A stretch of DNA of 35,638 bases from Candidatus Moraniibacteriota bacterium (GTDB taxonomy: Bacteria; Patescibacteriota; Minisyncoccia; Moranbacterales; UBA1568). The stretch covers positions 1-35,638 of the forward strand of contig CAIOMK010000007.1 of assembly GCA_903859375.1 (NCBI GenBank), in the 5' to 3' direction. The notes below the pieces were generated by a model. It made no database searches, was not told where the DNA came from, and saw only the letters and a list, made by a program, of their open reading frames with translations. Position numbers and translations under genes: made by a program. Below, piece after piece: positions 7,841 to 20,849 of this stretch (the stretch's first letter is position 1; the number at the start of each line of letters is the position of its first letter).

Positions 7841-7871
7841 AAAAAAATGAACCGTATAAGGTTCATTTTTT
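7841..7871. terminator. Bidirectional intrinsic terminator at the ftsQ 3' end
   Basis: AAAAAAATGAACC, loop GTATAA, GGTTCATTTTTT: a near-perfect 12-bp stem with T-runs in both directions. It overlaps the ftsQ stop codon (7863-7865) and separates ftsQ from the methyltransferase gene. Confidence 0.9.
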
Positions 7872-8897
7872 CTTACTGTCTCCCGACGTGACGGTGGGTG
7901 TGGGTGTGGGTGTGGCCACAGAGGCCGGTACCAGAGTTGTCGGGGTCGTGGGAGCGACCGGCGGAGGTGTCCAGTCCGTGTATGAGAAGAACGCCTTGTT
8001 CTCGGTACGAAGGTCTATATAGCGAAGCACGGAGCGCCTCTCGACCGGAATCTCTTTCTCCAGCACGAGCTTCAGGGAATCGATTGTCTTGTCCGGGTCG
8101 ATACCAAGGTTCACCAGGAGATCCCATCCCTGCTCCGTCGTGATACGCACCTCGTCGGACACGCGCGACGGGGAATGGAACGGGACGGTGATACCGATAT
8201 CTCCGCGATCGCGGATACTCCGCTCCAACAGCATGATCGAATGGGACGCCTTCACGGAAAGAAGCGGCTCCCCGACAGCCACAAGACGGGCACTCCCGTC
8301 GATGACGCGAAGCAGGAACGGCTCATTCTCAGGCGTCTCCGCGAATCGGGCATCCTGCGCGTTCCCGGCATCATCTACTAGGACACAGGAATTATTTGCA
8401 CACCACAACAGTATCCGGTCACGTTCGGAAATCTCGATATTCACCTTGTCCGGAAACTGTCGGGTGACGGAAGCGCTTTTGAGCTTCGGAAATTCAAGGA
8501 GCAGATCCCTTTCGATCGAAAAGGAAGGCATAAGGAAAAAATTGTCTCCCGGAAGGATTCGGAAACGTTTCCCGGACAGTCGGTCGCGGACAAAGGCGTC
8601 GATCCTCTCCGACGGGATGTCGTGATTGCCAGATATCGAGATCGTGCGTACGGTATGGAAATCGGAAAAGAAAAGAGTGAAAACGATAACGGCGATCACT
8701 ATGCCCCACAAGACGGTTATCCCCCACCCGATGCCGGAACCGGTTTGCTTTTCCCGGACAAGCAACGGTTTCCGAAGCTTCTTATCGGGAAGAAACGCTT
8801 CCCGAAACAGACTCTCTTTCGGGAGTTTTTTCAGCTTCCCGGGTTTCATGGCCGGTGTCACTTTTGTCGTATTGTCTTTTTTTTGTCGTGTGTTCAT
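7863..8897 (-). CDS. ftsQ: Cell division protein FtsQ/DivIB
   Basis: Bitopic divisome protein of 344 aa that links early and late division proteins. A basic cytoplasmic tail (1-56) precedes one membrane segment (about 58-77, GWGITVLWGIVIAVIVFTLFF), then a POTRA domain (about 80-155, starting VRTISISGNHDIP) and the beta domain ending with YIDLRTENKAFF, a hallmark of FtsQ. The C-terminus is a Pro/Thr-rich tail encoded by a GGGTGT-type microsatellite (about 7890-7915) and ends KKK within the terminator stem. It follows holB with an 11-bp gap, so it is probably the last gene of an operon that begins upstream at a glycosyltransferase gene. Confidence 0.85.
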   Translation of the reverse strand: MNTRQKKDNTTKVTPAMKPGKLKKLPKESLFREAFLPDKKLRKPLLVREKQTGSGIGWGITVLWGIVIAVIVFTLFFSDFHTVRTISISGNHDIPSERIDAFVRDRLSGKRFRILPGDNFFLMPSFSIERDLLLEFPKLKSASVTRQFPDKVNIEISERDRILLWCANNSCVLVDDAGNAQDARFAETPENEPFLLRVIDGSARLVAVGEPLLSVKASHSIMLLERSIRDRGDIGITVPFHSPSRVSDEVRITTEQGWDLLVNLGIDPDKTIDSLKLVLEKEIPVERRSVLRYIDLRTENKAFFSYTDWTPPPVAPTTPTTLVPASVATPTPTPTVTSGDSKKK

Positions 8898-12169: not shown

Positions 12170-13183
12170 TTATTTCCCGAGCATGATACTCCGTTTGTAT
12201 GCCTCGAGATTCTCAAGCACGATGCCGGTACCGCGTGCGACGCAGAATGCCGGATCGTCCGCGACATAGCACGGCACGCCTATCATCTTGCTGATCAGCT
12301 GGTCGAGAAAACGGAGTTGGGACGTCCCTCCAGACAACACCATGCCCTTGTCCATAATATCCGCCGAAAGCTCCGGCGGCGTCTCCTGCAAGACCTGCTT
12401 CACGACATTGATGATTTCCCGGAGTTCATCTTGGATCGCTTCCGTCACCTCGTTCGAGGAAATAGTCACCGTCCGGGGAAGTCCTCCCATGAGATCCCGT
12501 CCGCGGATGTCCATATGATCCTCCTTGACCTGCGCGATCGCCGCACCGATCTTTATCTTGAGATCTTCCGCCGTCCGCTCGCCGATCGCGAGGCTGTATT
12601 TCCGTTTGATATAGTCCGATATGGCAAGGTCGATCCGGTTCCCACCGACACGTGCCGATGCCGACGCAACCACACCGCCGAGCGAGATGACCGCGATCTC
12701 GGACGTGCCTCCGCCGATATTGATGATCATGTTCCCCTGTGCGGTATGGATCGGGATGCCCGCACCGATCGCCGCGAGGATAGGTTCTTTCACGACATAG
12801 GCCGCGCGTGCGCCTGCCTTGTTCGCCGCGTCGATGACCGCCCGACGCTCGGTCGAGGTGACGCCGGCGGGGATGGACAGCACCACTTCCGGCCGGATGA
12901 GTCGGAATCGTCCGGAAACTTTCTGTATGAAATAACGGAGCATCGCCTCGGTCACACGATAGTCGGCGATCGCCCCGTCCCGAAGCGGTTGGCACGCGAT
13001 GATGGAATCAGGCGTCCGCCCGATCATCTCCTTCGCTTCGTTGCCGACGGCGAGTACCTTGTTCTCGAAGACCGAGACCGCCACAACGGACGGTTCATTC
13101 ACGACGACGCCTTTCCCCGGCACGAACACGAGCGTATTCGCGGTTCCGAGGTCTATGCCGATTTTTCTCACGAATGGATTCAT
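12170..13183 (-). CDS. mreB: Rod-shape determining protein MreB
   Basis: Bacterial actin of 337 aa that organises lateral-wall peptidoglycan synthesis at the membrane. Visible motifs are phosphate 1 IGIDLGTANTLVF (8-20), the second phosphate loop NIGGGTSEIAVIS (about 155-167) and the adenosine motif VLSGGTSQLRFLDQL. Length is typical. It is followed by a GT4 gene after 22 bp and preceded by murA, a clear wall-synthesis neighbourhood. A weak hairpin (13229-13246) and a parS-like box (13186-13201) sit in its upstream gap. Confidence 0.96.
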   Translation of the reverse strand: MNPFVRKIGIDLGTANTLVFVPGKGVVVNEPSVVAVSVFENKVLAVGNEAKEMIGRTPDSIIACQPLRDGAIADYRVTEAMLRYFIQKVSGRFRLIRPEVVLSIPAGVTSTERRAVIDAANKAGARAAYVVKEPILAAIGAGIPIHTAQGNMIINIGGGTSEIAVISLGGVVASASARVGGNRIDLAISDYIKRKYSLAIGERTAEDLKIKIGAAIAQVKEDHMDIRGRDLMGGLPRTVTISSNEVTEAIQDELREIINVVKQVLQETPPELSADIMDKGMVLSGGTSQLRFLDQLISKMIGVPCYVADDPAFCVARGTGIVLENLEAYKRSIMLGK

Positions 13184-13274: not shown

Positions 13275-14537
13275 TTACGCATCGACGCGCCTGATGTCCG
13301 CTCCGAGCGCCGAGAGTCTCTCCTCTATCCGCTCATATCCGCGGTCGACCTGGTAGATGTCCTCGATGACGGTCTTGCCTTCGGCCACGAGTGCCGCGAT
13401 GATGAGTGCCGCTCCGGCCCGGAGGTCGTAACTGCGGATCGTCGTCCCCCGAAGTTTCGCCGGCCCGCGGAACCGTACCTGATGAGGATTCAATACCGTC
13501 GCATGTGCCCGCATCTTCTCGAGCTCCGCCACATAATTGAAGCGCCCCTCGAAAACGGTATCGAACAGAAGGGTCTCCCCATCGGCCAGTGCCGAAAGGA
13601 CGCCGAACGGCGCCTGCACGTCCGACGGTATGCCGGGATAGGTTCGGGTATCGATCTTCGACACCGCGACGAGCTTCTTGGCCGGGACGACTGTGATGGA
13701 TTCGCCCTCGATACGGAAGTCCGCACCGAACTCGCGGAGTTTCTCGAGTATGATATCGAGATGATGCTCGTGCGCGTTCCGCACGGTGATCGGACTCCCG
13801 GTCGCGACACCGAGGACGAGAAAGGTTGCCGCCTCGTTCGCATCCGATATGACCGTGTGCTCGGCGCCGGACAGGTGATCGGTGCCTTCGATCTCGATCA
13901 CATGCGTCCCGAGTCCGGACACCTTCGCGCCCATCTTCCGCAGAAATTTTCCGAGGTCCTCCACATGCGGTTCCGCGGCCGCGACACGGATGATCGTCTT
14001 TCCGGGCATCCCCGCCGCGAGCATCATCGCATTCTCGGTCGCCGTCACGGACAGCTCCCGCAATGCGATCTCCCCCGGTTTCCGCCCGGTCGCGTCGATA
14101 CGGTATTCTTTGCCGTCGCCCTCGATCTCCACGCCGAGTTTCCGAAGCGCGTCGAAGTGTGTCCCCACGGGACGTGCGCCGATGACACATCCGCCCGGAT
14201 GCGCGAGCGTGAACAGACCGAAACGCGCCGAGAGCGATCCGAGCAACAGTATCGAGGAGCGGATCTTCTTCACGGGCGTCACGTCCATCTTGGACGGATC
14301 CACATCCTTCGGGGTCACCGCGACAGTCCGTTCATCGCGCCACTCGACCGTCACACCCATACTTTCAAGAATTTCAAGCAACCGAAACACGTCCTCGATA
14401 CGCGGTACGTTTCCTATAACGCTCGTTTCGGCAGAGAGAAGCGTCGCTGCCAGGACAGGCAGTGCCGCGTTCTTTGAACCACGCACGTCGATAGCTCCGG
14501 AAAGCCTTTTTCCACCTTCTATTTCGAATCGTTCCAT
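13275..14537 (-). CDS. murA: UDP-N-acetylglucosamine 1-carboxyvinyltransferase MurA
   Basis: First committed enzyme of peptidoglycan synthesis: transfers enolpyruvate from PEP to UDP-GlcNAc. From the ATG at 14537 the protein has 420 aa and starts MERFEIEGGKRLSGAIDVRGSKNAALP, the classic MurA beginning with the catalytic Lys (K22). The catalytic Cys is C117 in HPGGCVIGARPVG, so the enzyme should be fosfomycin-sensitive (lineages with Asp here are resistant). An in-frame start at 14573 adds 12 residues encoded by the promoter itself and is rejected. A good promoter ends 8 bp before the ATG, which would give a leaderless mRNA. mreB follows. Confidence 0.96.
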   Translation of the reverse strand: MERFEIEGGKRLSGAIDVRGSKNAALPVLAATLLSAETSVIGNVPRIEDVFRLLEILESMGVTVEWRDERTVAVTPKDVDPSKMDVTPVKKIRSSILLLGSLSARFGLFTLAHPGGCVIGARPVGTHFDALRKLGVEIEGDGKEYRIDATGRKPGEIALRELSVTATENAMMLAAGMPGKTIIRVAAAEPHVEDLGKFLRKMGAKVSGLGTHVIEIEGTDHLSGAEHTVISDANEAATFLVLGVATGSPITVRNAHEHHLDIILEKLREFGADFRIEGESITVVPAKKLVAVSKIDTRTYPGIPSDVQAPFGVLSALADGETLLFDTVFEGRFNYVAELEKMRAHATVLNPHQVRFRGPAKLRGTTIRSYDLRAGAALIIAALVAEGKTVIEDIYQVDRGYERIEERLSALGADIRRVDA

Positions 14538-14544
14538 AGGTATA

Positions 14545-14573
14545 ATTCTAGCCCAATATTCGGTTTCAGGCAA
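14545..14573 (-). promoter_or_regulatory. murA promoter giving a near-leaderless transcript
   Basis: TTGCCT (14573-14568), 17 bp, TAGAAT (14550-14545) on the minus strand. The expected start site, 6-7 bp downstream, falls at the A of the murA ATG (14537) or one base before. No Shine-Dalgarno is possible on such an mRNA. Confidence 0.65.
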
Positions 14574-14812: not shown

Positions 14813-15598
14813 TCAGGAAAGGTATACTCCATCACGCGTCTCATGGGACAGGACCAGGTGCATCAGGAGGGATATCACGACGACCTGAGCCAGTGTGAAA
14901 ACGACTGTCGATATCAGCTCCACGAATCCGTAACGGTTCTCGGTTTCCGTTTTGGCGAACACATCGATATTCGTCAGGGCGCTGCTTGAGATCGATCCGA
15001 CACTGCCGCCGGAAAACAGGCCGTCGGACTGACGTTCATCGGAAGTTCCTGAGACGGACGGTATTCCCCCTTTGCAAAGAGTGAGGGCGTCTTCTTTGGT
15101 AAGCTTGGTCGCGACCTCACGTCCCGACCGTGTCCCGAACATCGCGACGACGATCATCGTTTCGCGTCCTTCGAAATATGTCTTCTTCACCGCCATACCG
15201 ATTTCACTGAATCGCGGGTCAAGAATATTCTGACAATGTTTCTCACTCTGCATCCACGCGACATGTTCGCTTGTCGGATCATTGAAATGAATGGCGAGAT
15301 TCTCACCAGCATAATGATATTCATATCCGACCTTGTCCATGAAGGACCACGGAGTGAGACCGGTAGGAGACGTGTGGGCAAAGTATCCGCCCTTCTCCAT
15401 GTCGGAGAGCTTCGTCGCCGCAGCCCATTCGAGAGAGGTATTCACCGTAAGTTCGGCGATACCACGCTGCTTCCGTTCCTGGTTCGTGAGCGCAAGCTCC
15501 GCTTCGATCCACGGAGACTGTCCGCCGGATGCGAAAGCCGCACTTGTCGGGACAAGCAGGATCGCGATAATACTGGTTATAAGGATGGACCGTTTCAT
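14813..15598 (-). CDS. Secreted, membrane-anchored CAP/SCP-domain protein (YkwD-like)
   Basis: 261 aa with a signal peptide (KRSILITSIIAILLVPTSA, cleavage near residue 24) and a CAP domain at about 33-155. CAP signature residues are H75 (YFAHTSPTG), E99 (AGENLA), and the helix EHVAWMQSEKHCQNILDPRF with H112 and H121, ending FSEIGMAV. A Ser/Gly-rich linker leads to a C-terminal membrane helix (about 225-247, LISTVVFTLAQVVVISLLMHLVL). Bacterial CAP proteins are extracytoplasmic; their biochemical role is mostly unknown (some bind or cleave wall components). Its promoter overlaps the trxB stop, and a terminator-like hairpin lies inside its 5' leader. Confidence 0.88.
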   Translation of the reverse strand: MKRSILITSIIAILLVPTSAAFASGGQSPWIEAELALTNQERKQRGIAELTVNTSLEWAAATKLSDMEKGGYFAHTSPTGLTPWSFMDKVGYEYHYAGENLAIHFNDPTSEHVAWMQSEKHCQNILDPRFSEIGMAVKKTYFEGRETMIVVAMFGTRSGREVATKLTKEDALTLCKGGIPSVSGTSDERQSDGLFSGGSVGSISSSALTNIDVFAKTETENRYGFVELISTVVFTLAQVVVISLLMHLVLSHETRDGVYLS

Positions 15599-16689: not shown

Positions 16690-18099
16690 TTATTTCTTCC
16701 CCGTGGCGATACCCGCCACCGCTTCGCGGAATTTCTCACCGCGATCGAATTCATTCTTGAACAGTCCGAAGCTCGCGGCGCCGGGAGACAGGAGTACGAT
16801 ATCACCCGGCTCGGCCGAGCGGAACGCGAACTCGACCGCCTTGCCCATATCCGACACCGTTTCGAACCGCCTCTTCTTATCCTCTTCCGGGAGACGGCTG
16901 CGGATTTCCCGAAGCAGACGCTCCGTCCCGTTTCCCTCCAGGAACACGGCACCCTTCGCACTCCGTATGATCTCTTCGGCAAGCGGTGCGAAGTCGAGAT
17001 TCTTGTCCGAACCGCCGGCAATCATGATGACCGGGGCGTCGAAGGACCGGAGTGCCAGAACCGCGGACTCCGGAACAGTCGCGGCGGAATCATTATAAAA
17101 CGACACGTCACGCTTCTCCGCGATGAATTCGAGCCGGTGTGGCACGCCGCGAAACGTACGCAGACCGGATGCTATTTTGGAAGCGGGAACGCCCGCCATG
17201 AATACGGCCGTCGCGGCGGCGATGGCGTCCGGAAGGATATGACCACCCGGGATCCGTATATCGGACGTGCGGAACAGGACGGTCTCCTTGTCGTCCCGGA
17301 CGATGACGACCTCGTCTCCGCTGAAGAAGACACCCTGGCTCCGCTCGCCTTCCTTTGAAGAGAAAAAGATCTTTTCGGAGGGAACGGAATCTTCCCGTAT
17401 GAAATCGAGTGTCGAATCCGCTATGACGATATCCCCTTTCTTCTGTGACGAATACAGGTACTGCTTGTCACGACGGTATGCTGATATGGATCGGTAGTAG
17501 TTGAGATGATCCGGAAAAAAATTTGTGAACACCGCGATATGAGGACTCCTCTTCAGGCGTCCGAGTGCGGAGAGCCTCCAGCTTGAAAGCTCGAATACGA
17601 CGATATCCTTGGGATGGATCTTCCCGATCATCCCGAGAACGGGAGCACGGCTTATGCCGACTTGTGCCACGCCTCGTCCCGATTCTTTCAGGATGTGGGC
17701 GATCATGCTCGCGGTCGTCGTCTTCCCCTTCGTGCCGGTAACCCCGATGATCGTATTGTCACAGTTGTCGAAGAAGATGCCCGAATCCATCTCGACTTGA
17801 ATCCCGTTCGACTCGGCGAGCCTGACATATTCGTTCGTCCAAGGGATGGCCGGGTTCTTGATGACCAGGTCGGTACGCAAAAAATCCTCCGGGCGATGTT
17901 GCCCGAGGACATAGGTGATATTCCCGTATCGCGCGAGACGGGTCAGAGAAGGAAGAAGTTCTTCCCTGTTCTTCATGTCTGTAACGATGATTTCCTTGAC
18001 GCCCGCGCGCTCAAGAAACTCAACGGTGCCGACACCGCCCTCGTTTACACCGAGCCCGAATACGGTCACTTTTTTCCCTTTGAGATCTTCTTTTTTCAT
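16690..18099 (-). CDS. murD: UDP-N-acetylmuramoylalanine--D-glutamate ligase MurD
   Basis: Mur ligase of 469 aa that adds D-Glu to UDP-MurNAc-L-Ala. N-terminal Rossmann domain VTVFGLGVNEGGVGTVEFL (11-29), ATP-binding loop GVTGTKGKTTT (119-129), ELSSWRL in the central domain, and the C-terminal domain with PHRLEFI and FYNDSAATVPES. The NPAIPW segment near 82-87 replaces the usual SPG(I/V)P. NDSAAT instead of NDSKAT is the variant seen in part of the family. MurD is preferred over MurC or MurF by size, the ELSS motif and domain order. trxB follows; a hairpin (18144-18171) lies upstream. Confidence 0.93.
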   Translation of the reverse strand: MKKEDLKGKKVTVFGLGVNEGGVGTVEFLERAGVKEIIVTDMKNREELLPSLTRLARYGNITYVLGQHRPEDFLRTDLVIKNPAIPWTNEYVRLAESNGIQVEMDSGIFFDNCDNTIIGVTGTKGKTTTASMIAHILKESGRGVAQVGISRAPVLGMIGKIHPKDIVVFELSSWRLSALGRLKRSPHIAVFTNFFPDHLNYYRSISAYRRDKQYLYSSQKKGDIVIADSTLDFIREDSVPSEKIFFSSKEGERSQGVFFSGDEVVIVRDDKETVLFRTSDIRIPGGHILPDAIAAATAVFMAGVPASKIASGLRTFRGVPHRLEFIAEKRDVSFYNDSAATVPESAVLALRSFDAPVIMIAGGSDKNLDFAPLAEEIIRSAKGAVFLEGNGTERLLREIRSRLPEEDKKRRFETVSDMGKAVEFAFRSAEPGDIVLLSPGAASFGLFKNEFDRGEKFREAVAGIATGKK

Positions 18100-18196: not shown

Positions 18197-19789
18197 TCAT
18201 CCGAACAGCCCGTATCTTTTTGCACGTATCGTCTCCCCCGCCCGGGTGCCGTTCCATACACCGTCTTCGGCCGTCACTTTGCCGCTGACGATCACCGCAT
18301 GGACACCGACCGGATAGTGGAAAGGATCATCCAATGTGGAACGTTCGGCGATGGTCGCCGGATCGAACACTACGATATCAGCCTTGAACTTTTCGCGCAA
18401 GAAGCCCCGGTCGTTCAGTCCGAATTTGATTGCCGGCTTTCCGGTCATCTTGTATACGGCTTCTTCCCATGACAGCACTTTTTCCTTGCGGACATATTGC
18501 TCGAATACCCGCGGGAACGTCCCGAAGTTTCTCGGGTGGACCGCATTTCCGGTCGCACCGTATTCCGTAGAATATCCGACACCGTTCGAGCTGATGATGG
18601 AAAAGGGATGACGGACGGCTTTCGCGACGTTTTCCGGACTCGACACTTCAAGCGATACGATAGCGCGACCTCCGCTCGCGAGCAACACGTCGATGACGAC
18701 GTCCTCCGGCGACTTCCGTTGCGATTTCGCGATCGACGCGACCGTCTTCGGACCATGAGTCGAACTGATAGCCGTGATCAGCAATCTCATGCCGGAATAG
18801 TCAAGTCCGCTTTCGTGCATATCGCGGACGACGGCTTCCCGAACCTTTGGATCACGAAGCCTATGCAACATCGTATCTCGGCCACTTTCCGTCACCCAAT
18901 CGGGAAGAAACGTATATAAAACCGAACCGCTCGCGGTATACGGGTACACATCGAAGGTTATGTCGAATCCGTCCTGGGCGGCGTTCCGGATGATCCCAAG
19001 CGCGTCCTCGAACAGAGGCCAGTTCCGCTTCCCGACCGCTTTCAGGTGGGAGATGTGAAGAGGCACACCCGAGCCTTTCGCTGAGGAGATCGCCTCCTCG
19101 GTCGCCTTCAACAGGTTCTCGCCCTCGTCTCGCAGATACGTGACATACATACCGTTCCTTTTCGCGACCAGGTCAAGCATTCCGGATATTTCATTGTTCT
19201 CGGCGAGCCGGGCGTGCGTGAATTTGAGAGCGGTCGAGAATCCGATAGCGCCTTCATCGAGAGCACGACGAAGGAGCAGCTTCATCGTGGACAGGTCGCT
19301 GTCGGTCGGTTTTTTGGTCGGGTTACGCAAGACACCACGACGGATCGTCCCATGTCCGGCCAATGTCGCGAAATTCACCGACAACGGCCGGTGTTCCATC
19401 TCTTTCAGAAATTCTTTCATCGAGAGCCAGTTGAATGTCACCGCATCCACATCCGTCCATTTCTGAATGGAGCGGAGACTCTCCGGCTCGACAAGCGGGG
19501 CAAGTGAAGCTCCGGAGTTCCCGCCGATTATCGTCGTCACGCCCTGCAAGAGCATGCCATGCAGTCCCGGGTTACGGAAAATTTCCCAGTACGCGTCTGA
19601 GTGATTGTTGACATCTATGAATCCCGGCGCGACATAACAGCCGTCAGCATTGATGATCTTCTCCGCCGTCTCGCCGGACAGGTTCCCGATCGAAACGATC
19701 ACGTTCTCCTTCACGCCGATATCGGCCCGGAACATGGCGGATCCGGATCCGTCTATCACAATGCCGTTTTTTATAAGGAGATCGTACAT
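18197..19789 (-). CDS. D-aminoacylase-family amidohydrolase, metal site apparently lost
   Basis: 530 aa from the ATG at 19789 (MYDLLIKNGIVIDGSGSAMF); a TTG at 19828 would add 13 unconserved residues. The fold of the N-acyl-D-amino-acid deacylase family is complete: N-terminal beta sandwich, PGFID strand (55-59), GVTTI strand, HISHLK (245-250), HPRNFGTFPRVF (418-429) and C-terminal KADIVVFD. Yet four metal-ligand positions are altered: first His of HxH is N61 (H63 kept), the bridging Cys of GNCG is S92, the His of T-H-x-R is Y218 and the Asp of SDG is N402; H248 is kept. This points to a non-catalytic or altered enzyme. It sits between gap and murD, 61 bp after gap, so a D-amino-acid or wall-related role would have been expected. 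Confidence 0.85.
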   Translation of the reverse strand: MYDLLIKNGIVIDGSGSAMFRADIGVKENVIVSIGNLSGETAEKIINADGCYVAPGFIDVNNHSDAYWEIFRNPGLHGMLLQGVTTIIGGNSGASLAPLVEPESLRSIQKWTDVDAVTFNWLSMKEFLKEMEHRPLSVNFATLAGHGTIRRGVLRNPTKKPTDSDLSTMKLLLRRALDEGAIGFSTALKFTHARLAENNEISGMLDLVAKRNGMYVTYLRDEGENLLKATEEAISSAKGSGVPLHISHLKAVGKRNWPLFEDALGIIRNAAQDGFDITFDVYPYTASGSVLYTFLPDWVTESGRDTMLHRLRDPKVREAVVRDMHESGLDYSGMRLLITAISSTHGPKTVASIAKSQRKSPEDVVIDVLLASGGRAIVSLEVSSPENVAKAVRHPFSIISSNGVGYSTEYGATGNAVHPRNFGTFPRVFEQYVRKEKVLSWEEAVYKMTGKPAIKFGLNDRGFLREKFKADIVVFDPATIAERSTLDDPFHYPVGVHAVIVSGKVTAEDGVWNGTRAGETIRAKRYGLFG

Positions 19790-19850: not shown

Positions 19851-20849
19851 CTAGATTTCTTCGGCCAATTCTACGAGCCGATTCGAATATCCCCATTCAT
19901 TATCATACCACGCCATGACTTTCACGAGATCCCCATCCACCACTTTGGTGAGGGAAAGATCGACGATGCTCGAATACGGATTACCGATGAAATCGGCTGA
20001 AACCAGCTGTTCATGCGTAACGGAAAGGGCGCGGGAATATTCCTTGTCCTTGCTTGCCTCTTCGAGGACGGCATTCACCTCTTCCATGGTCGTCTTTTTG
20101 GCGACAAGGAACGTGAAATCCGTAAGCGAGGCGACGATGGTGGGGACGCGGACGGAAAGGCCGTCGAATTTTCCGGAGAGTTCCGGCATCAGTCGTGCCA
20201 CGGAAATAGCCGCACCGGTCGTGGTCGGAACGATGTTCTGTGCCGCCGCACGTGCGCGACGGAGATCTTTGTGCGGTCCGTCTTCAAGATTCTGATCGGC
20301 CGTGTATGAATGGATCGTCGTCATCATCGCTTTCACGATACCGAATTTGTCCGCGATGATCTTCGCGACGGGCGCTATACAATTGGTCGTACATGACGCG
20401 TTCGAGATGATCGGTTCGCCCTTGTATTCCCGGTCATTCACGCCTATAAGATATGTCGGGATTTCGTTGTCCCCTTTCGGCGGTGCGGACAAGACGACCT
20501 GCTTGGCTCCGGCGGTGAGATGCTGACCGGCGGAAGCGCCGTCGACAAACCGTCCGGTGCATTCCAAAACCACCTCCACGCCGAGTTCTTTCCACGGAAG
20601 ATTCTTCGGATCCGGTTCCGAAAAAACGGGGTAGCGCTTGCCGTCGACGATGATCGCACCTTTCTCCGCAGATACGGAATATCGATACGCCCCATACGTC
20701 GTATCATACTTGAGTAGGTGTGCAAGCGTCTCGGCATCGGTAAGATCATTGATGGCGACGATCTCCGTCCCCTTCCGCTCGAGAGCAATCTTGAATGAGG
20801 CGCGTCCAATACGACCGAATCCGTTTATAGCCATCTTCTTCACTGCCAT
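19851..20849 (-). CDS. gap: Glyceraldehyde-3-phosphate dehydrogenase
   Basis: 332-aa glycolytic enzyme that oxidises and phosphorylates G3P. NAD motif INGFGRIGR (8-16) with D35 in AINDLTD at the adenosine ribose site, active-site SNASCTTNC with C153, the His in TTIHSYTADQNLEDGPHKDLRRARAAA, and the C-terminal WYDNEWGYSNR. All catalytic residues are present and the length is normal. It has its own 240-bp upstream region with two promoter-like direct repeats. The deacylase-like gene follows closely, probably in one transcript. Confidence 0.97.
   Translation of the reverse strand: MAVKKMAINGFGRIGRASFKIALERKGTEIVAINDLTDAETLAHLLKYDTTYGAYRYSVSAEKGAIIVDGKRYPVFSEPDPKNLPWKELGVEVVLECTGRFVDGASAGQHLTAGAKQVVLSAPPKGDNEIPTYLIGVNDREYKGEPIISNASCTTNCIAPVAKIIADKFGIVKAMMTTIHSYTADQNLEDGPHKDLRRARAAAQNIVPTTTGAAISVARLMPELSGKFDGLSVRVPTIVASLTDFTFLVAKKTTMEEVNAVLEEASKDKEYSRALSVTHEQLVSADFIGNPYSSIVDLSLTKVVDGDLVKVMAWYDNEWGYSNRLVELAEEI

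Follow-up and report, generated by a model that had tools for sequence, protein, structure and literature searches.

In the carbohydrate deacetylase PpOngB a single essential zinc is coordinated by Cys97, His222 and His252, and Asp368 serves as the catalytic base (PMC12017989). Alanine mutants of these four residues, and of His68 and His70, retain little or no activity, and Lys254, Tyr285, Arg379, Ser291 and Asp368 bind a sulfate that marks the position of the carboxylate of the substrate (PMC12017989). The ligand roles that an earlier note on the DNA analyzed here had given for Alcaligenes D-aminoacylase agree with this 2025 study. Metal-independent amidohydrolases exist as a class as well (PMC12017989). 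Here we describe a D-aminoacylase-like gene from a Patescibacteria contig of 35,638 nucleotides (the window, meaning the whole stretch analyzed). Our preferred reading, to which we give about an even chance, is that its product is a pseudo-deacylase without zinc that has been retained to bind a ligand, as a partner of the UDP-MurNAc-peptide (MurD) step. A search of open-licence papers returned nothing on a D-aminoacylase-like gene in the Patescibacteria cell-wall cluster.

The gene, its predicted fold and its metal site

The reading frame at 18197-19789 on the minus strand is open over 530 codons from an ATG start; a scan for promoters and terminators gave no more matches than chance. Pfam family PF07969 (Amidohydro_3) spans residues 44-506 with 90 bits against a cut-off of 29.7, and the closest solved relatives by sequence are D-aminoacylase (1m7j, E=1.8e-70), N-acyl-D-glutamate deacylase (3gip, E=2.3e-67) and PpOngB. 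The nearest curated family, NCBIfam NF006560, is matched at 175 bits, below its cut-off of 340. An AlphaFold2 model of the protein, built from 49 sequences, has a mean pLDDT of 90.5 and a pTM of 0.92, and aligns with 3gip, 1rjq, 1m7j and PpOngB at TM scores of 0.81-0.83 by query length (rmsd 3.0-3.6). Full-length homology and the predicted fold place the protein among the subtype V amidohydrolases, and its earlier description as a homologue of the D-aminoacylase family is borne out by the PDB sequence matches, PF07969 and the model. A second, canonical copy, which the earlier note had proposed to look for, was not found in the genome of the window, where PF07969 has one match. The gene and the codons that matter for its site are as follows.

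18197-19789 (-): D-aminoacylase-like protein without zinc site, 530 aa (open frame from ATG, Pfam, PDB sequence matches, predicted structure)
19607-19609 (-): codon 61, AAC, Asn for His67, the first His of HxH, alpha side of the site (PDB and lineage alignments)
19601-19603 (-): codon 63, CAC, His69 equivalent kept (PDB alignment)
19514-19516 (-): codon 92, TCC, Ser for Cys96, ligand of the essential zinc (alignment; roles from PMC12017989)
19214-19216 (-): codon 192, His typical of the Patescibacteria clade, Pro in canonical members (alignments)
19136-19138 (-): codon 218, TAT, Tyr for His220, ligand of the essential zinc (alignment; roles from PMC12017989)
19046-19048 (-): codon 248, CAC, His250 equivalent kept (PDB and lineage alignments)
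19040-19042 (-): codon 250, Lys252 equivalent, carboxylate-binding, kept (49-member alignment; PMC12017989)
18944-18946 (-): codon 282, Tyr283 equivalent, carboxylate-binding, kept (49-member alignment; PMC12017989)
18584-18586 (-): codon 402, AAC, Asn for the catalytic Asp366, SDG to SNG (alignment; roles from PMC12017989)
18530-18532 (-): codon 420, Arg377 equivalent, carboxylate-binding, kept (49-member alignment; PMC12017989)

Alignment with the D-aminoacylases of known structure (1m7j and 3gip) confirmed each residue replacement that had been named: H67 is N61, C96 is S92, H220 is Y218 and the Asp of SDG is N402, while H63 and H248 are indeed kept as the equivalents of H69 and H250. The HxH motif reads N61-N62-H63, the Cys/His/His site of the essential zinc holds S92, Y218 and H248, and N402 occupies the place of the catalytic Asp after strand 8. 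With the base and two of the three ligands of the essential zinc replaced, subtype V deacylation by the known mechanism is impossible, and the view that the protein would not act as a zinc deacylase is well supported by these alignments. The carboxylate-binding Lys, Tyr and Arg are present as K250, Y282 and R420; together with H418 they are invariant in the 49-member Patescibacteria alignment. The equivalent of BbDam Arg295, which governs specificity for the D-Glu side chain, appears to be Leu in the window protein, and the loop/insertion domain around it aligns poorly, so that the exact ligand is uncertain.

Conservation, selection and the order of loss

The residues N61, S92, Y218, H248 and N402 are invariant in 22 of 22 sequences of the window's lineage, whose mean pairwise identity is 64%. 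Among 69 homologues from outside Patescibacteria, H220, H250 and D366 occur in all 69, N is never found at 61 nor S at 92, and Cys96 is sometimes Asp or gap-aligned (GEG motif). Sixty positions are at least 90% conserved in these homologues, and the commonest residue of the window's lineage differs at six of them, including H220 and D366. The 69 outside homologues thus give no sign of many active family members with Asn/Ser/Tyr/Asn at these positions, and the alignment does not suggest that neighbouring residues would supply the ligands. Some canonical relatives outside Patescibacteria (L150, L151, L163, L171 and their kin) have LxW or LxQ for HxH and GEG for GNCG, and keep H220, H250 and D366; they represent a further natural variation on the metal site.

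A deacylase that remains active because its metal site has been rebuilt, for example from H63, H248 and H192, or because it uses another metal, is improbable. Such a site could draw on the two of six site residues that remain and on the fixed additional His192, and canonical relatives do include Cys variants (Asp or GEG) and HxH variants (LxW). All of those variants, however, keep H220, H250 and D366 (69/69), and a change of Asp to Ala at this position abolishes PpOngB activity (PMC12017989). Almost all of the Patescibacteria clade has the Pro to His change at 192, members with the complete triad and site among them; His192 therefore predates the losses and did not arise as a ligand replacement.

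Estimated by NG86, the unsaturated pair L015/L018 has a dN/dS of 0.045, while L017/L025 and the window with L003 both come to about 0.09, the latter pair with dS >1. Ratios of about 0.05-0.09 indicate that purifying selection acts on the gene. The protein thus has marks of a putative pseudoenzyme: catalytic residues lost, a (predicted) fold retained and purifying selection. The contention that the replacements do not reflect decay stands on the residues fixed across the lineage and on these ratios. That the gene is a decaying pseudogene, or an artefact of sequencing error or bin contamination, is scarcely credible: one genome of the window's family, G017, does have an in-frame stop in its copy, in an assembly that is 76% complete, but the open frame, the residues fixed lineage-wide, the low dN/dS and the conserved synteny all speak against this explanation, and selection and residue fixation exclude decay.

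Of 57 relatives from within the order, 53 carry an orthologue at 43-80% identity, in a single copy per genome except where it is split; these genomes measure about 1 Mb. A sample of the phylum gave matches in 56 of 380 genomes, nine of them weak and resembling other amidohydrolases. Four f10 genomes of the order lack the gene yet have murD, and the gene is therefore not universally required.

We followed the site states on a tree of 127 rows, inferred by a quick method without the six site columns and with 44 of 124 inner branches weakly supported. Written as the residues at positions 61/63/92/218/248/402, canonical outgroups are mostly HHCHHD and most Doudnabacteria-like sequences QHCHHD; His67 is mostly changed to Gln or Asn in Patescibacteria. 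Within the window's order, family f11 has the full site (HHCHHD), most other families have NHCHHN, and the window's own family, f1, has NHSYHN with the exception of G006 (NHCHHN). Because some relatives have the full site (HHCHHD) or the Cys/His/His set plus Asp (QHCHHD), the protein family as a whole is not uniformly dead. With rows that have a gap at C96 scored as not lost, 67 of the 127 rows lack none of D366, C96 and H220, 29 lack D366 only, three lack D366 and C96 and 28 lack all three; no other combination occurs. The minimum number of changes by parsimony is nine for D366, five for C96 and four for H220, and two independent events on supported branches bear on a possible coupling between the losses of C96 and H220, too small a number to give a statistical test power. 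Losses in other branches include NHSYHN (L071), THSQHN (L074), SRSHHN (L077 and L078), QHSSHN (L054) and NDSYHH (L090), and the most degenerate copies read NSNNNG (L094) and GVGSDY (L095). Judged by these sequences, the loss appears stepwise and nested: D366, then C96, then H220. The earlier note had the positions changing together, whereas the replacements seem to have been acquired one after another. The result is a putative series of pseudoenzymes whose intermediates survive (the full site, then sites without the first His, without Asp, without Cys and finally without any zinc site), and every step in it can be tested.

Cell-wall neighbourhood and sources of D-glutamate

The minus strand of the window carries, in order, GAPDH, the D-aminoacylase-like gene, murD, a thioredoxin-reductase-like protein, a CAP-domain protein, murA and mreB:

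19851-20849 (-): type I GAPDH, directly upstream; a neighbour common to part of the order
16690-18099 (-): murD, directly downstream after a 97 bp gap (TIGR01087, 349 bits, cut-off 212); adjacency conserved
13275-14573 (-): murA
12170-13183 (-): mreB

An FtsQ-type POTRA protein (7863-8897) lies on the same minus-strand stretch, and the CAP-domain protein (14813-15598) is secreted. Between GAPDH and the D-aminoacylase-like gene some genera have an additional gene of about 370-395 aa (L197:7727-8848, L198:4884-6071); its product is charged and coiled-coil-like and has no Pfam match.

We counted neighbours in those Patescibacteria loci whose downstream sequence extends for at least 1.2 kb, leaving out the archaeal L123. 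In 57 of 58 such loci, some of which are the same contig taken twice, the gene holds a conserved position among the mur/mraY/fts genes of the dcw cluster, with at least one of murD, mraY, ftsW, murI and murA nearby, compared with 1 of 55 non-Patescibacteria loci, for which detection with Patescibacteria reference proteins is somewhat less sensitive. The single non-Patescibacteria case is murI in the acidobacterium L147. The recurrent arrangement in Patescibacteria is mraY-[D-aminoacylase-like gene]-murD-ftsW; the Doudnabacteria-like order is dacA-like, mraY, D-aminoacylase-like gene, murD, ftsW, where murD starts inside, or a few bases past, the stop of the D-aminoacylase-like gene. Families f11, f90 and f35 have murI directly upstream of the gene. 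A glutamate racemase in this position is seen in L147 and in several Patescibacteria loci (L072, L073, L075, L076, L088, L091 and L034). The proximity to murD that had been pointed out earlier is therefore not incidental, as this neighbourhood is conserved across much of Patescibacteria. The adjacency indicates a shared pathway, not physical contact, and a role in the cell wall is likely.

That the protein is purely a scaffold or stabiliser of Mur/dcw proteins, with no small ligand, seems rather unlikely. The linkage is tight, with gaps to murD that resemble translational coupling in many genomes, and even the most degenerate copies, L094 and L095, still adjoin ftsW or mraY. However, few columns vary as little as those of K250, Y282, R420 and R220, a constancy that a scaffold would not need, and three genomes (G019, G045 and G391) keep the gene though their murD is elsewhere.

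Several Patescibacteria have a MurL-like epimerase domain fused to MurD in a protein of about 840-880 aa (L189:308-2836 in G003 C38, L237:647-3301, L239:1454-3988 and L238:2626-5154). The closest relative of the window, G003, has such a fusion in place of the adjacent murD and keeps the D-aminoacylase-like gene; G019, G045 and G391, where murD is not adjacent, have a similar fusion at another location and likewise keep it. What the gene is linked to is therefore either the addition of Glu to UDP-MurNAc-L-Ala or the whole cluster, and not one source of D-Glu. We rejected the possibility that the gene replaces murD where the two are not adjacent: murD is found above the cut-off elsewhere, fused to MurL in three such genomes.

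MurI was matched in 21 of the 57 relatives and in roughly half (by hand count) of the gene-bearing genomes of the phylum sample, whatever the state of the site, and many of the genomes without MurI have aminotransferase IV or MurL instead. On these grounds a role of the gene as D-Glu supplier in place of MurI was rejected. Searches for MurI, aminotransferase IV and MurL gave no match in several nearly complete genomes of the order, among them G010, G015, G020, G021, G035 and G041, whose gene loci are L007, L010, L014, L015, L029 and L064, with murD beside the gene in most.

The presence of several nearly complete genomes with no recognised D-Glu source lends some weight to the main rival, a metal-independent enzyme with a new activity, which we nevertheless consider unlikely. 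The residues S92, Y218, H248, K250, H192 and N402 would then make up a novel active site for an N-acyl-glutamate, for instance UDP-MurNAc-L-Ala-Glu, and the reaction would be a transfer, an epimerisation or ester/amide chemistry. The substituted residues are invariant and do not drift, Ser92 and Tyr218 recur in L071 and L090, which are rows apart from the window's family, the clade-specific His192 is nearly fixed, and a class of metal-independent amidohydrolases has precedent (PMC12017989). Against this, C to S, H to Y, H to N and D to N are each possible by one nucleotide change, so that mutation may account for the recurrence of the S/Y pair; the genome of the window has both MurI and aminotransferase IV, and MurI is present or absent irrespective of which residues the site has. 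It is hardly probable that a metal-free enzyme derived from the zinc deacylase acts on UDP-MurNAc-L-Ala-Glu at the MurD step, for example as an epimerase or transferase, and supplies or edits D-Glu where MurI, D-amino acid aminotransferase and MurL are absent.

The most likely role is non-catalytic, the binding of a carboxylate-bearing N-acyl-amino-acid ligand in wall precursor synthesis. A protein of D-aminoacylase fold would have been recruited into the dcw gene cluster of Patescibacteria, and the window's lineage would then have lost zinc and hydrolysis with two of the three essential zinc ligands, the catalytic base and one assisting His. The grip on the ligand, through the carboxylate-binding Lys, Tyr and Arg, may have been retained as the chemistry was lost; the bound ligand would be of the kind named above, and MurD, MraY or another protein could be regulated through it. 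The pseudo-enzyme or new activity first suggested, and the binding or regulatory role near murD, fit the losses in the site, the kept carboxylate residues and the conserved murD context. The gene is a candidate for a hitherto unassigned part of peptidoglycan synthesis in a large group of uncultured bacteria whose genomes are tiny, and a lead on how many Patescibacteria obtain D-Glu.

Comparison with known systems

The window protein has full-length homology to D-aminoacylase of Alcaligenes faecalis (1m7j, 1rjq, 1v4y) and to N-acyl-D-glutamate deacylase of Bordetella (3gip), and has in common with them the TIM barrel and beta domain, the carboxylate-binding Lys/Tyr/Arg and the HPR-GTFPRV motif. 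Unlike them, it lacks the Cys and His zinc ligands, the first His of HxH and the catalytic Asp, and is encoded in a cell-wall cluster. PpOngB (9kb1, 9kb3, 9kb4), of the same fold and family and with a beta-mononuclear site, is a case of the fold serving another substrate; by contrast with the window protein, it keeps Cys97, His222, His252 and Asp368 and is active. The CRMPs, relatives of dihydropyrimidinase, have an amidohydrolase fold and are usually taken to be non-enzymes that serve structural or binding functions. They align with the model at TM scores of 0.54-0.57, but belong to another branch of the superfamily, are eukaryotic and serve an unrelated pathway. MurL works at the same pathway step, and in G003 the MurL-MurD fusion adjoins the D-aminoacylase-like gene; the protein itself is unrelated, being an ATP-dependent epimerase (PMC5808125).
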